Shown here: positions 6,580 through 20,576 of the stretch, in pieces
Layout of the letters: each line of letters opens with the position of its first letter
How positions within the stretch are numbered: the stretch's first letter is position 1
Source of the DNA: a virus
Virus record (IMG/VR): IMGVR_UViG_3300023184_000566
Span: 1-22,102 of that record
Direction: 5' to 3' (one strand)
DNA: 22,102 nucleotides
Position numbers and translations under genes: made by a program
Notes under the pieces: generated by a model
Told to the model about the DNA's origin: nothing
The model's database searches: none
The model's input: only the letters and a program-made list of their open reading frames with translations

Positions 6580-7998
6580 ATGGCCGATCTAAATGCACTT
6601 ATCGCACAAGGCGTGCAATTCAAAGCACCTCCTGATCCGTTTGTTCAGTACGCCCAGATGCAGCAATTGCAGCAAGGCGAACAAGCAAATCAATTAGGTC
6701 AAATGAAGATGCAAGAATATCAACGTGGATTGCAAGAGCAAAACGCTTTGCGTAACGTTGTGAGTCAGCCAGGGTTTGACCCTATGAATCCTACGCATCA
6801 GGCTAGTGCGTATTCTGCTGCACCAACGCTAGCGCCTGGATTTATTGAAAAAGCATTGGCTACTAGAGAAACTGTTGGCAAAATTGGCAAACTTGGTTCT
6901 GAAACAAACGCAGCAACGTTTAAATTACAACTAGAAAAAGCTAATACGGCTATTAAAGACATTACGTCGTTAAACAATCCGCAAGAAGCGGCTGCCAGCA
7001 TTGATGCGCATCTAGCAAACGGCGACATCACGGCAGATAAAGCAGCGATGTTAAAAAATTCTTTGACTGCTGCGCCTAGTTTTGGCGATTGGCAAAAGAA
7101 AATGGTTATGGGCATTTTGGATGCCAAAGATCAATTGACCATGACTGCGCCTAAACCTACTGAAATGCGATTAGGTAATGTAGTCAAGTTGATCGACATG
7201 AATCCTAATAGCCCGACATTCAAGCAAGAAGTTTTGCCATCTCAAAGAATAGGATTGTCTCCAGGCGAAGCATCAACCGCAGCCACTGCCGCTGCCCGTT
7301 TGGATTTTGATAAAGCTAAAGTTCAATGGGAAAGGGATAACCCTGGCTTTACCATTGAAAAGGTTGGCCAACCTGATGGCACAGAGCAATTTGTTGCAGT
7401 TGACAAGAAAACTAGGCAGGCCACCCCAATTACTACAGCCGCGCCACCAACTGCTGCACCGGCTGGCGCAGGCCGTGGCGCTGTTGGCGTAACGGATACA
7501 ACGGCTGGCATCCCATTGGTCGGCGCGGCTAAAAACGCACAAGCAACTGAAGGCGAACGCAAAGCTGCTACGTTATTGCAACGATTGCAATTCTCGCAAG
7601 GCCAACTAATGCAAGCCTTAAAAGAAAAACCAGATGCGGATAAGCCTGGTTTATTTGCGTCTGCCGTCGGAAAGTTGTCTACTACTGGCGAAAATCTGCT
7701 TAATTCTGCTGAAAGGCAAAGAGTGCAAGCAGCTCAGTTAGACATTCTTGATGCCGCCTTAACCCTTGGTACCGGTGCTGCATATACCAAGGAACAGCTT
7801 GAGGGGTACAGGACTTCATACTTCCCTGCTTATGGGGATGAGCCTGCAACGGTTTTGGATAAGCAATTGCGCTTAAAGAACGTTATTGATGCTGCCAAAA
7901 CTGCCGCTGGCAGAGCTGCTAAGTTAGTGCCTGCTGCACCGGCTGCTGCTGGTGGAGGCTCCGCTAGAGAAGCCGCCGACAAGATACTTGGACTTTGA
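6580..7998 (+). CDS. Putative internal virion/ejection protein (second of three)
   Basis: This encodes 472 residues. The ATG has AGGA about 9 bases upstream and lies 10 bases after the previous stop. The N-terminus (FVQYAQMQQLQQGEQ, then further Gln-rich sequence) is predicted to be a long helix or coiled coil. The rest is Ala/Lys/Thr-rich with a low-complexity linker near residues 285-310 (TTAAPPTAAPAGAGRG). No catalytic motif is seen. Size, composition and position between the gp7-like protein and another large Ala-rich protein suggest a head-internal protein ejected with DNA, in the role of P22 gp20. This is inference from context. Confidence 0.62.
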   Translation: MADLNALIAQGVQFKAPPDPFVQYAQMQQLQQGEQANQLGQMKMQEYQRGLQEQNALRNVVSQPGFDPMNPTHQASAYSAAPTLAPGFIEKALATRETVGKIGKLGSETNAATFKLQLEKANTAIKDITSLNNPQEAAASIDAHLANGDITADKAAMLKNSLTAAPSFGDWQKKMVMGILDAKDQLTMTAPKPTEMRLGNVVKLIDMNPNSPTFKQEVLPSQRIGLSPGEASTAATAAARLDFDKAKVQWERDNPGFTIEKVGQPDGTEQFVAVDKKTRQATPITTAAPPTAAPAGAGRGAVGVTDTTAGIPLVGAAKNAQATEGERKAATLLQRLQFSQGQLMQALKEKPDADKPGLFASAVGKLSTTGENLLNSAERQRVQAAQLDILDAALTLGTGAAYTKEQLEGYRTSYFPAYGDEPATVLDKQLRLKNVIDAAKTAAGRAAKLVPAAPAAAGGGSAREAADKILGL

Positions 7999-14338: not shown

Positions 14339-14548
14339 ATGGTTACAACAACTGAGCAAACAATCGGCGCCCTGCGCCAAAAAGCCAAGGAGCATGGGTT
14401 TCGCATGGCAGACATAGCCCAGCAGGCAGGCGTAGACCCAGCCCAGCTATCGCGCTGGGCCACGGGTAAGGTAGTCCCGCTGCACTCCAACATCGTCAAG
14501 CTAGAACAGGCCGTGGACGCAATGATTGCGGCAAAGGCACCGGCATGA
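14339..14548 (+). CDS. Cro-like helix-turn-helix regulator
   Basis: This encodes 69 residues. Residues about 22-41 (RMADIAQQAGVDPAQLSRWA) form a typical XRE/Cro-type helix-turn-helix, followed by TGKVVPLHSNIVKLEQAVDA. The size equals a Cro monomer with no extra domain. AAGG lies close upstream of the ATG. It is the first gene of the rightward block and faces the palindromes in the divergent region, so it probably represses one or both early promoters. No CI-type partner or integrase is in the window, so lysogeny cannot be judged. Confidence 0.85.
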   Translation: MVTTTEQTIGALRQKAKEHGFRMADIAQQAGVDPAQLSRWATGKVVPLHSNIVKLEQAVDAMIAAKAPA

Positions 14549-16304: not shown

Positions 16305-16877
16305 ATGCAAATGCTAAATCTATCTTCTGGCAGCGGCTCTGGTAACTACATCCGCTTTTCGCCCCAAGCTAACGCTTGGACTAACAACAACAACGAGGAA
16401 ATTGAACTTAAAAAAGTGGTGTTTGACATCGACAACATCAAGACAGGCTGGCTCTTACTTGGTGTAGGTGTACGCGATTGGGTGCAAGATGAGAGTGTTG
16501 GAAAGAAAGGGCCGCAGCCCAGCCCCGAACACAAACGAGGATTTCAAGTTGTCTTGTACAACAAAGAGATCGGTGCAGCTGAATGGTCTAGCAACGGTGT
16601 TGGCCCCAACATGGGATTGGAGCAGATGTACAAGGCTTGCGCAGCCGAGCGTGCCGCTAACCCTGGCAAGCTGCCGGTATTGCAGTATGGGCACTCTAAG
16701 GCCGAGAAAATCGGCAAAGGCACGACTCGGATTCCTATCTTTGTGTTGACGGGTTGGGTTCCTCGGCCCGCGGGATTGGATGCTGTAGCCGAGGAAGCTG
16801 TGCCAGAGCCAATCCAACAGCCAGTTCGTAAGCAGGCACCCAAGGCTGCTGTCGTGGAGGACGACGAGATTTTCTAA
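16305..16877 (+). CDS. Putative single-stranded DNA-binding protein
   Basis: This encodes 190 residues; Met at 16305 or 16311 may be used, and neither has a strong Shine-Dalgarno. An N-terminal, beta-rich body (NYIRFSPQANAWTNNN, then ELKKVVFDIDNIKTGWLLLG) is followed by a Pro/Ala-rich linker and an acidic tail ending VEDDEIF. An acidic tail with terminal Phe is the partner-binding end of bacterial and phage SSBs. The gene lies between the nuclease and primase-helicase. The family name is not certain, but the role fits replication. Confidence 0.62.
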   Translation: MQMLNLSSGSGSGNYIRFSPQANAWTNNNNEEIELKKVVFDIDNIKTGWLLLGVGVRDWVQDESVGKKGPQPSPEHKRGFQVVLYNKEIGAAEWSSNGVGPNMGLEQMYKACAAERAANPGKLPVLQYGHSKAEKIGKGTTRIPIFVLTGWVPRPAGLDAVAEEAVPEPIQQPVRKQAPKAAVVEDDEIF

Positions 16878-16947: not shown

Positions 16948-18927
16948 ATGGACACAGAAACAATAGCCAAGGCGCTGGGCAACGCCAAGAAGGTCAATGG
17001 ATCATGGGTGGCATCATGCCCCGTACCTGGCCACGGCAGAGGCAACGGGGACAAGAACCCTAGCCTGTCTATCTCAGAATCAGAGGGCAAGGTCTTATTC
17101 CATTGTCACGGCGGCTGCGACCAGCGGGACGTGTTTGACTCGGTACGCGAGCGCAACTTGCTACCCACAACGCCCAAGCGGGAGGAGATTAGCTTTACCC
17201 AGCATCAGGCGCCGGTATTGCAACAGGAATGGGAATACACGGCAGAGGACGGCAGCGTCTTATTCACTAAGCGCCGGTATAAAACAGCAGACGCCAAGGG
17301 TAAGACGTACTCAATACACAGGGTAGATGCCAACGGCAAGCGGACGGCGGGATTAAAAGACACCAGAATTGTGCCCTACCGCCTGCCGGAGATGCTGGTA
17401 GCCAAAGCAGCGGGACGCGCAATCTACTTGGTGGAGGGCGAGAAAGCAGCCGATGCGCTCATCAGCATTGGCGCGGTGGCCACCACAAGCCATACGGGTG
17501 CAGGGTCATGGCCCGAGGATATCACCCAGTATTTCGCGGGCGCCAACGTCGTGATAGTGCCTGACAACGACGAGCCAGGCAGAGCATATGCGAAAAAGGC
17601 TATAGCCAAGCTTCTACCCGTGGCTAAGTCAATCAGGTACTTAGACCTTAATCTCATGATGGAAGGCGACGATGCCTATGAGTGGGTCAACGACATGGCG
17701 GGCACAAGGACTGAGCTTGCAAGCCTAGCCAAGAAGTCGCCAGTCATTACCGAGCCGGCAGAGGAGCCAGTTCCAGAGCCCATGCCTGACATGGACACAT
17801 ACAACCCTACGCCGCAGCTCCTAAACATTGAGGCATGGGACACCATAAAAGACGAGCCGGTCAGCTGGATCATTGAAAACGTATTGCCTGACAAAGGATT
17901 TGCAGCCCTGTACGGCCCGCCAGGCAGTTACAAGTCGTTTGTGGCGCTGGACATAGCCGAGGCTGTGGCCACGGGAAGGCAATGGATGGGCAACGAGATT
18001 GCATTGGCGGGCGCCGTAATCTACATTGCCGGCGAGGGGCACGGCGGTATCGGGGCGCGGATTAAGGCGTGCAAGATACATAACAAGACGCAGGACGGGG
18101 CAGATATTTACGTCATTAGGCACCAGCTCAACCTCAGATCAAGCGCGGACGACTTTAACCTGCTGATGGAGTCGATTGACAACCTGATAGAGCAGACAGG
18201 CATCCAATTGCGCTTAGTTCAGATAGATACGCTGGCTCGAGCATTCGGTGGCGGCAACGAAAATGACAGCCAGGATATGGGTGCATTTATCCATAACACG
18301 GGAAGAATGCAGCGCAAACTGGGCTGCGCGCTCATGGTTTTGCACCACTCAGGTAAGGACGCCACCAAAGGATTGCGCGGTCATAGCTCATTACTAGGCG
18401 CCGTGGACACGCAACTCGAGCTGCAGAAACTTGACGTAACAGTCAAGAAGGACGGTGTAGCCGGACAAGGAATCATCACCATAAGCAAGCAAAAGGACGG
18501 TCAGGACAACATCAAATTTGGGTTTGAGATGGTGCAAATTAACACCAGCGGCGGGCTAAACCTGGGCGAATCCCTTTCACTAGCGGTCAAGGAGCATCAG
18601 GAAATGATTGACGAACAGCACAAGAAACCTAAGACGCCACCAATAAGAACAGGGGCTGGCGGCATCCAAAAGCAGGCTTTGGACGCCTTGCACAAGGCGA
18701 TTGCAGAGCACGGCGAGATGAGAATAATTGACGGAAAGCGCAATAAATCAATCTACACTGAGCAGTGGCAGCAAGCGTTTGAGGCGGCCCAGATGGACAA
18801 AGCAGGCATCAAAAGGCGGTTTACGAGGTGCGTTCAGAGCCTTCAAAACGCCAAAAGGGTGGAAGTTTTTGATCCTTTTGTGTGGGTGATTTGGGACGAT
18901 AGTGACCAAAATGGCGGGGACTTTTAG
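16948..18927 (+). CDS. Primase-helicase: zinc finger, TOPRIM, RepA-like AAA ATPase
   Basis: This encodes 659 residues in three visible parts. A zinc ribbon uses Cys24, His29, Cys53 and Cys57 (SCPVPGH and FHCHGGC), as in phage primases. A TOPRIM core follows, with Glu163 in IYLVEGEKAADAL and PDNDEPGRA at 205-213. An AAA_25/RepA-like helicase has a Walker A of GPPGSYKS at 323-330, a Walker B around LVQID (Asp427) and HHSGKDATKG near 466-475. The C-terminal 100 residues are helical and may bind DNA. It primes and unwinds the origin and fork. It has no strong ribosome site, and its stop codon sits in an inverted repeat that adjoins the iteron-like array. Confidence 0.92.
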   Translation: MDTETIAKALGNAKKVNGSWVASCPVPGHGRGNGDKNPSLSISESEGKVLFHCHGGCDQRDVFDSVRERNLLPTTPKREEISFTQHQAPVLQQEWEYTAEDGSVLFTKRRYKTADAKGKTYSIHRVDANGKRTAGLKDTRIVPYRLPEMLVAKAAGRAIYLVEGEKAADALISIGAVATTSHTGAGSWPEDITQYFAGANVVIVPDNDEPGRAYAKKAIAKLLPVAKSIRYLDLNLMMEGDDAYEWVNDMAGTRTELASLAKKSPVITEPAEEPVPEPMPDMDTYNPTPQLLNIEAWDTIKDEPVSWIIENVLPDKGFAALYGPPGSYKSFVALDIAEAVATGRQWMGNEIALAGAVIYIAGEGHGGIGARIKACKIHNKTQDGADIYVIRHQLNLRSSADDFNLLMESIDNLIEQTGIQLRLVQIDTLARAFGGGNENDSQDMGAFIHNTGRMQRKLGCALMVLHHSGKDATKGLRGHSSLLGAVDTQLELQKLDVTVKKDGVAGQGIITISKQKDGQDNIKFGFEMVQINTSGGLNLGESLSLAVKEHQEMIDEQHKKPKTPPIRTGAGGIQKQALDALHKAIAEHGEMRIIDGKRNKSIYTEQWQQAFEAAQMDKAGIKRRFTRCVQSLQNAKRVEVFDPFVWVIWDDSDQNGGDF

Positions 18928-18969: not shown

Positions 18970-19132
18970 CAAATGGAGCCAAATGGTGAGCCAAATGGAC
19001 GGATGAGAGGAAAAACGTGAAATTTGCCAAATGGGACAAATGGGACAAATGGATGCCAAATGGATGCCAAATGGTGAGCCAAATGGAGAAAAATGGTGGT
19101 TTGCATAGATTTGGTGCAGTTTTGCCAAATGG
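18970..19132. repeat. Iteron-like array of CAAATGG direct repeats
   Basis: CAAATGG starts at 18970, 18980, 18992, 19028, 19037, 19046, 19057, 19068, 19080 and 19126, all in the same orientation. Most are preceded by C or A and are spaced 9-12 bp, near one helical turn. Degenerate copies lie at 18906 (CCAAAATGG), 19090 and 19175. An inverted copy is at 19159-19165. The array occupies the non-coding gap right after the primase-helicase gene, where replication iterons would be expected. Confidence 0.88.
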
Positions 19133-19170
19133 GAGAGCGTATGTCTTAATATACGCTCCCATTTGGCAAA
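19121..19170. repeat. Long imperfect hairpin built on the repeat motif
   Basis: TTTGCCAAATGGGAG at 19121-19135 is the exact reverse complement of 19156-19170. A two-base bulge (AG, 19136-19137) is followed by a further 5-bp pairing (CGTAT with ATACG) and an 8-base loop. The hairpin would put one direct and one inverted CAAATGG on opposite strands of the same stem. No T run follows it. Confidence 0.85.
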
Positions 19171-19209
19171 TTACCAAATGCCCGAGGTTGTGTTTTTTAG
19201 GATGATGTG

Positions 19210-19854
19210 ATGGCTACAAATAAGCGTAAAGTTTTGACAAGTATTGAGGTCAGGCAGCCGAGCTTTCCAGCGGATCGGTTTGAGTTGTTTAGGAATGCGG
19301 TTTTGGTGGAGTTGGAGAATCGGAAGAAAGACCATGATGCGAAGTGGGGTATTGATAGATTGATTTGGTTGGTGAGTACCGAGTTGCGGGAAAAGGTCTG
19401 GGCGCAGCTCCAGCGGGTTTACCTAGCTCAAGAGTCGCGGGACGACGAAAGGATGGCCAAGGCGGTTAGCGGGATGTGCAAAGCCTACGACGCTATGGAG
19501 GCTTGGGCGACAGAGAACAACGTGGAGCAGGTAGCCGATGTACGCCAGATCGAATGGCGGCAGCCGGACGGGGTAATCTTTGTGGTGGTGCCCGACGAAA
19601 AGGCGAAAAAGGTTTATTTGCAGAATTGGCCAGGCACTGCGGACAGGATTGTTTGGACAATGAAAGAAATTGCGATAATAGTCAACAAGCAGGCAGAGGG
19701 ACAGATCAACGAGCTAAAACGGCAATGGCCAGGCAGTCAGCTGGTTTCGGTCGGCGGGCCTAGCGGGTTTGATGACATGGACAATGACATTGATATGGTG
19801 ACGCCGAGCAAGACGCCAAAACTGTTTGATACAAAAGCCTTTGCAAAGGCTTAA
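19210..19854 (+). CDS. Phage protein of unknown function between two repeat clusters
   Basis: This encodes 214 residues. I chose the ATG at 19210 because AGGA lies about 8 bases upstream; GTG at 19207 is possible. The protein has a charged segment ENRKKDHDAKWGIDRLIWLV, then helical sequence (GMCKAYDAMEAWATENN). The C-terminal half reads like a beta-rich domain (GVIFVVVPDEKAKKVYLQNW) and has an acidic stretch, DDMDNDIDMV, near residue 190. I recall similar proteins in other phages without a function. Repeat clusters on both sides suggest it may bind one of them, as an initiator, partition or packaging-related factor. This is only inference. Confidence 0.78.
   Translation: MATNKRKVLTSIEVRQPSFPADRFELFRNAVLVELENRKKDHDAKWGIDRLIWLVSTELREKVWAQLQRVYLAQESRDDERMAKAVSGMCKAYDAMEAWATENNVEQVADVRQIEWRQPDGVIFVVVPDEKAKKVYLQNWPGTADRIVWTMKEIAIIVNKQAEGQINELKRQWPGSQLVSVGGPSGFDDMDNDIDMVTPSKTPKLFDTKAFAKA
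19835..19852. repeat. 18-bp perfect palindrome at gene end
   Basis: AAGCCTTTGCAAAGGCTT reads the same on both strands and reaches the first base of the stop codon. It could be a protein-binding site or part of an end signal; no T run follows. Confidence 0.8.
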
Positions 19855-19859
19855 AACGT

Positions 19860-19948
19860 GCCAAATAGCCGTTTGGCGGTGTTTGGCGGTACTTGGGTGC
19901 TGATTGTGGGCAAAGTGGCAGCATCAGCGGCAAAAGGGCAAAGTGGCA
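19860..19948. repeat. Second direct-repeat cluster (GTTTGGCGGT and GGGCAAAGTGGCA)
   Basis: GTTTGGCGGT occurs twice in tandem at 19871-19880 and 19881-19890. GGGCAAAGTGGCA occurs exactly at 19908-19920 and 19936-19948, 28 bp apart. GCCAAA at 19860-19865 and TTTGGC at 19872-19877 form a 6-bp inverted repeat. This fills most of the 153-base gap before the terminase small subunit. Confidence 0.82.
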
Positions 19949-20007
19949 ACGTTATGCGCTTTTTGCATACATTTTAGATAATTACGCGCACGCGCTGGGG
20001 GTAATGA

Positions 20008-20532
20008 GTGAAAACAGCAGCCGAAAAGATGACAAAAACAGGTGCAATCATGGGCAGACCAGTGAAATGGCCGCCCGAGCATCCAGTTTGGCGGGAGATT
20101 ATTGGTCGCGTTTCGGCTGGCAAGGCGCTGTCAACGGTGCTAACTGAGCCTGGTTATCCGACTTGGGGCGGCTTTCACGCAATGATTGACCAAGACGCCG
20201 AGCTCAAGATGGCCTATGAGAAGGCCGTCCAAGACCGCGCAGACAAGCTGGCTGACGAGATACTGCAGCTCTCTGATGAGCAGATGCCCGCGGGGCTGGA
20301 AGGCGCTATGGCGTCTGCCTGGGTGCAGCAAAAGCGGATGCAGGTGGACGCGCGCAAGTGGATCGCCAGCAAGCTCAAGCCGAGGACGTACGGCGACCGC
20401 ATTGACATGACGGTGAGAGACGAGCGCATCAGCGTGCTCGGCGCGCTCGAGGCGGCGCAGGCCAGGGTGCAGACATTGCAACTGGACAACGTCACCGACA
20501 TCACGCCCAAGGTTGTGGACAAGTCTAGCTGA
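20008..20532 (+). CDS. Terminase small subunit
   Basis: Up to 174 residues. The GTG at 20008 has GGGGGT upstream; the ATG at 20050 (160 residues) has AGGTG and gives the usual MGRPVKWPPEH beginning, so the start is not settled. Residues after the HTH-like N-terminal part (IIGRVSAGKALSTVLTEPG) lead to a helical middle and to VDARKWIASKLKPRTYGDRI. The latter is the typical C-terminal segment of phage small terminases. It recognises phage DNA for packaging and recruits the large subunit, which is not in this window. Confidence 0.86.
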   Translation: MKTAAEKMTKTGAIMGRPVKWPPEHPVWREIIGRVSAGKALSTVLTEPGYPTWGGFHAMIDQDAELKMAYEKAVQDRADKLADEILQLSDEQMPAGLEGAMASAWVQQKRMQVDARKWIASKLKPRTYGDRIDMTVRDERISVLGALEAAQARVQTLQLDNVTDITPKVVDKSS

Positions 20533-20576
20533 TACGTTTGTACTTTATACAACGGGCGTTATGTTAAGTACAAGGG

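Follow-up and report, generated by a model that had tools for sequence, protein, structure and literature searches.

A likely phage replication origin made of an iteron array and an iteron-bearing hairpin directly 3′ of a primase-helicase gene

The window analysed in this work (the whole stretch of 22,102 nucleotides, a 22-kb record of an uncultured virus) carries, between its primase-helicase gene and an uncharacterised gene called X here, a region (18970-19182) that is likely to be the replication origin of the phage, read by the C-terminal domain of the phage's own primase-helicase, with the product of X as an accessory factor. The array of short direct repeats (iterons) and the hairpin that make up this region keep their position across divergent phages, the hairpin shows compensatory changes, and the iterons covary with the C-terminus of the helicase and not with X. 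From these observations we infer the origin function, the binding of DNA by the C-terminal domain, and the roles of the hairpin loop and of X.

The array and the hairpin

The primase-helicase (16948-18927, plus strand) combines a Zn-finger-like N-terminus, a Toprim primase and an AAA_25 helicase of the RepA type, and matches PHROG primase/helicase families. Its Toprim matches are weak; its RepA-type RecA-fold core is recognised by AAA_25 (E 4e-39) and by the sole match among PDB sequences, RepA of RSF1010 (1g8y, E 4e-6). Elsewhere in the window, a 190-aa protein (16305-16877) has no family match and a C-terminus, EDDEIF, resembling the acidic tip of SSBs; in the same position Roseobacter phages have a gene annotated as ssDNA-binding protein. 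An ORF of 450 aa at the end of the contig (20743-22095) matches neither Pfam nor PHROG.

Eleven of the 12 matches to CAAATGG in the window fall within 200 bp (18970-19165), nine of them forming the array (18970-19086, plus strand; mostly GCCAAATGG, some GACAAATGG) and two lying in the arms of the hairpin (19103-19182). In 200 dinucleotide shuffles of the 282-bp intergenic region that holds all eleven no 7-mer exceeded five copies, so the array that the original prediction had placed ahead of gene X is confirmed as far above chance. Iteron-type origins have several direct repeats of one word, in numbers far above chance, beside the gene of a replication initiator; the window has such repeats, and, as far as sequence can tell, the array has the look of an iteron-kind initiator-binding site. 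To this extent the initiator layout originally proposed holds; the part of it in which X is the reader, with sites on both sides, is not supported. Each phage has a word of its own, uniform along its array and in both hairpin arms, and in the close clade these words form three classes: CAAATGG, ACG[G/A]AATGG and GAAAAATGG. The search of viral contigs with the array word also returned L035 (1963-2023), L037, L040, L049 and L050, which were discarded as false positives; they encode an unrelated phage protein whose GQM tripeptide repeat is spelled by tandem CAAATGGGA units.

The hairpin (no strand assigned) is 80 nt long and two-tiered, with the iteron in both arms of the inner stem and GTCTTAAT in the loop, and folds strongly as DNA (z = -7.8) and as RNA too. 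Among nine distinct ungapped sequences, 11 pairs show two-sided changes and 95.7% of the cells are paired, values that none of 500 shuffles reached, and sliding the structure leaves at most two such pairs; changes of the iteron are therefore mirrored in both arms. A CTTAA-like core of the loop is kept in most loci (GTCTTAAT, CCCTTAAGGG, TTGCTTAATGCAA) and is a possible priming or nicking site. In the apical loop (19140-19150 in the window) this core is common to clades with otherwise unrelated stems. At the hairpin there is neither an intrinsic terminator nor a terminator-like T run, and an Rfam search with it matched no family. Cumulative GC skew was uninformative and gave no support for an origin.

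Covariation of the repeat word with the helicase C-terminus

When primase-helicase and X are scanned by a sliding window, the word class segregates only with the last ~70 residues of the helicase (family-wise p 0.001-0.002). These belong to the proposed iteron-reading domain (residues ~559-659; 18622-18924, plus strand), in which the class signal is strongest at residues ~590-659. Across 71 loci, motif distance follows the helicase end (partial r 0.67 after control for core and X, p 0.001), with no correlation for X itself (partial r -0.07, p 0.96), in permutation-based statistics that treat related loci, mostly metagenomic fragments, as separate points and use no phylogenetic model. The corresponding values for the HTH protein, the resolvase, the exonuclease, the SSB-like protein and the small terminase are 0.04-0.35 (0.04 for the small terminase of the window, n = 14). 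The HTH protein (14339-14548) was considered as iteron reader and rejected, as it covaries little with the word. The pattern is independently repeated in Roseobacter phages, where the array word is GTATAAA in CRP-831/821 and CTACAAA in CRP-823/811 and the helicase ends differ, with X proteins at least 90% identical in spite of the differing words.

As X lies just as near the array as the helicase end does, one would expect linkage by itself to leave its mark on X as well. Because helicase and array are adjacent, exchange of both as a cassette could create part of the correlation, though the equally near X shows none. Since the repeats vary with the helicase tail and not with X, the primase-helicase is probably their reader, in so far as covariation among sequences can indicate it, and the idea that the array is gene X's own binding site finds no support. 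The C-terminal domain itself matched nothing in Pfam, the PDB or P4 alpha, for which reason its reading as a winged helix was made by eye only.

Gene X, its relatives and its surroundings

Gene X is, as predicted, an ORF of 214 aa starting with ATG (19210-19854, plus strand), with an alternative GTG start at 19207. Searches of its product against Pfam, PHROG, NCBIfam and PDB sequences gave only sub-threshold, inconsistent matches, which bears out the earlier impression that it belongs to no recognised family. An AlphaFold2 model was poor with a shallow alignment and became usable with a deeper one of 36 sequences (mean pLDDT 69.8), where it shows a bundle of helices together with a small alpha/beta domain and an acidic, disordered tail. 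Viral proteins gave the model 13 significant structural matches, of which one bears the label small terminase and the others are uncharacterised or unnamed; among PDB structures it has no significant match, so that structure prediction and homology search led to no initiator family or fold. We propose an X family with these three predicted parts, the fold being that of the mid-confidence model of the window protein, encoded directly 3′ of the iteron-hairpin region. Near its end the acidic tail carries a conserved LF, and the homologue in Caudoviricetes ctyzp037 ends in an SSB-like DPIPF; these ends suggest, as a lead only, a protein-docking tip.

About 100 metagenomic relatives of X were found, besides those of cultured Roseobacter phages, always just 3′ of an array and hairpin. 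Successive searches gave 31 and then 53 viral contigs with X relatives, and none was found in GTDB genomes; tblastn with P0001 found no relatives in annotated phages and P0003 as query found no viral ones. Searching with the upstream primase-helicase gave 80 loci, of which 48 are more distant (helicase 58-63% identical) and, where enough sequence is available, carry a repeat array and an X homologue 36-44% identical to that of the window. Gene order is conserved in the cultured Roseobacter phages CRP-811, 821, 823 and 831, with X only ~23% identical. In ctyzp037 (MW202711) a profile search recovers X (E 2e-12) directly 3′ of a GGGACA array and hairpin, which adjoin X with repA ~1.5 kb away, an arrangement that counts against the helicase as reader. 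There the array and hairpin (7800-7960) fall within the annotated CDS start of the X homologue, and small reverse-strand ORFs lie beside the array, one of which, on the side of repA, codes for an MqsA-like antitoxin and separates repA from the array.

Idiomarinaceae phage 1N2-2 (KJ847052, 3884-4148) has unannotated GGTACA iterons and a hairpin 3′ of its primase-helicase, while a search at E <= 1 found X nowhere in it. Roseobacter phage CRP-406, whose helicase is of another branch (PMC12629253), has no gap 3′ of the helicase and likewise lacks X. On this evidence helicase, array and hairpin form a unit, which X often accompanies.

The original prediction also saw X bracketed by its own sites, with a second repeat cluster behind it and GCCAAA/TTTGGC cores in both. 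The letters are there: GTTTGGCGGT occurs twice (19871-19890) and so does GGGCAAAGTGGCA (19908-19920, 19936-19948). These two short pairs (19871-19948, plus strand) decay in close relatives, however, being broken in one (L056) and partly lost in another whose protein is 95% identical (L006), and are absent from more distant ones; we judge them incidental and outside the system. GGCAAAGTGGCA with up to two mismatches has 4 hits in the window against 3.98 expected, and over 71 loci the local array word was counted 501 times upstream of X and never in a downstream stretch of equal length. With GGCAAAGTGGCA at chance level, the 3′ repeats unconserved and the array word never downstream, no GCCAAA/TTTGGC site is shared, and the layout with repeats on both sides is peculiar to the window contig and its nearest kin. 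The synteny survey that had been called for thus retains the array and hairpin ahead of X, and not the repeats behind it. Behind X the window has an Sf6-like terminase small subunit (20008-20532, plus strand; Sf6_terminase E 2e-23), a mere neighbour. In the window (19855-20540) and its close relatives the gene after X is one of at least two small-terminase types or another gene altogether, and such switching places a module boundary directly behind X.

X, as a phage-only family, is probably an accessory replication factor that targets the helicase, ssDNA or the origin structure, and not the iteron sequence. It is conceivable, if rather unlikely, that X represents a novel type of origin factor, one that recognises the origin by its structure (hairpin and conserved CTTAA-like loop) and not by its letters. 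Two proteins would then read the origin, the helicase tail its sequence and X its shape, and the constancy of X beside ever-changing iterons would be explained.

Other readings of the region fare worse. That array and hairpin are an RNA element or a transcription switch (attenuator or operator), with the helicase end as autoregulator, is quite improbable: they do form the leader of X, and the hairpin's strong RNA fold would suit such a switch, but the lack of a terminator-like T run and of an Rfam match speaks against it, as do multi-copy iterons, repeated in both hairpin arms, that covary with a replication protein, and an array that is kept in 1N2-2 despite the absence of X. We hold it very unlikely that X itself is a sequence-specific, iteron-binding initiator similar to RepC of RSF1010, loading the helicase. 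Its place directly 3′ of array and hairpin in every clade, even in ctyzp037 with repA displaced, would fit; yet X hardly varies from one word to the next, 1N2-2 has array and hairpin but no X, and, contrary to what is expected of a plasmid iteron initiator, X neither follows the iteron word nor matches a known initiator family or fold. A role of the array in packaging, as a pac site with X as its packaging factor, is hardly credible, for although the next gene after X in the window is that of a terminase small subunit and one structural match of X bears that label, the genes after X differ among relatives (different small terminases included, and non-packaging genes in Roseobacter phages) and the small terminase of the window shows next to no covariation with the word.

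Known systems and the evolution of the origin

A self-recognising primase-helicase is the most economical model. The origin would consist of the iteron array and a hairpin with the same iteron in its arms, directly 3′ of the gene whose product acts on it, and the tail of the primase-helicase would bind iterons just 3′ of its own gene. The hairpin may extrude or turn single-stranded and so expose its conserved CTTAA-like loop, which perhaps serves for priming, and X, directly 3′ of the origin, would act as an accessory replication factor on the helicase, ssDNA or the origin structure.

Parts of this arrangement resemble known systems. The alpha protein of satellite phage P4 similarly unites Toprim primase and helicase in one protein, together with a C-terminal origin-binding domain such as is proposed for the window protein (PMC4234260), and the type-1 repeats of P4 ori1/crr are, like the window array, short and directly 3′ of its gene. 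The P4 helicase, however, is not of the AAA_25/RepA type, crr has no annotated iteron-bearing hairpin, P4 has no X, and the two proteins are related neither in helicase nor in C-terminal domain (hhalign probability 4.2 and 0.2), the C-terminal domains showing no similarity in profile comparison. SaPI Rep and SCCmec Cch2 are helicases that use their C-terminal domain to recognise iterons lying immediately downstream of the helicase gene (PMC7581432), a pairing to which statistical covariation points in the window; unlike the window, these Gram-positive islands have a separate primase or primase-polymerase and no known X. RSF1010 (IncQ), whose RepA is the nearest solved relative of the window helicase (1g8y), has an oriV with iterons and ssi stem-loops for priming (PMC4234260), but there a separate RepC reads the iterons, whereas in the window the helicase C-terminus appears to do so. 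The archaeal plasmid pRN1 encodes a multifunctional primase-helicase with a winged-helix end, ORF904, with an essential stem-loop of ~100 nt just 3′ of its gene, and similar stem-loops have been reported in some phages (PMC4234260); it differs in its prim-pol, its superfamily-3 helicase and its lack of iterons. Since the system seems to work like those of P4 and SaPI without sequence membership in the P4 alpha family, it is a distinct combination of Toprim primase, RepA-type helicase, iterons probably read by its tail, iteron-bearing hairpin and X family.

The many natural pairs of helicase tail and iteron word on a nearly constant core would make origin specificity decodable and swappable in the laboratory, cultured Roseobacter phages included. 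By the layout of array and hairpin, likely replication origins can be located in uncultured phages, and attention is drawn to the uncharacterised protein family that is their steady neighbour. Exchange of iteron-plus-tail cassettes hints that these origins may be under diversifying pressure, for example against cross-recognition between co-infecting relatives.
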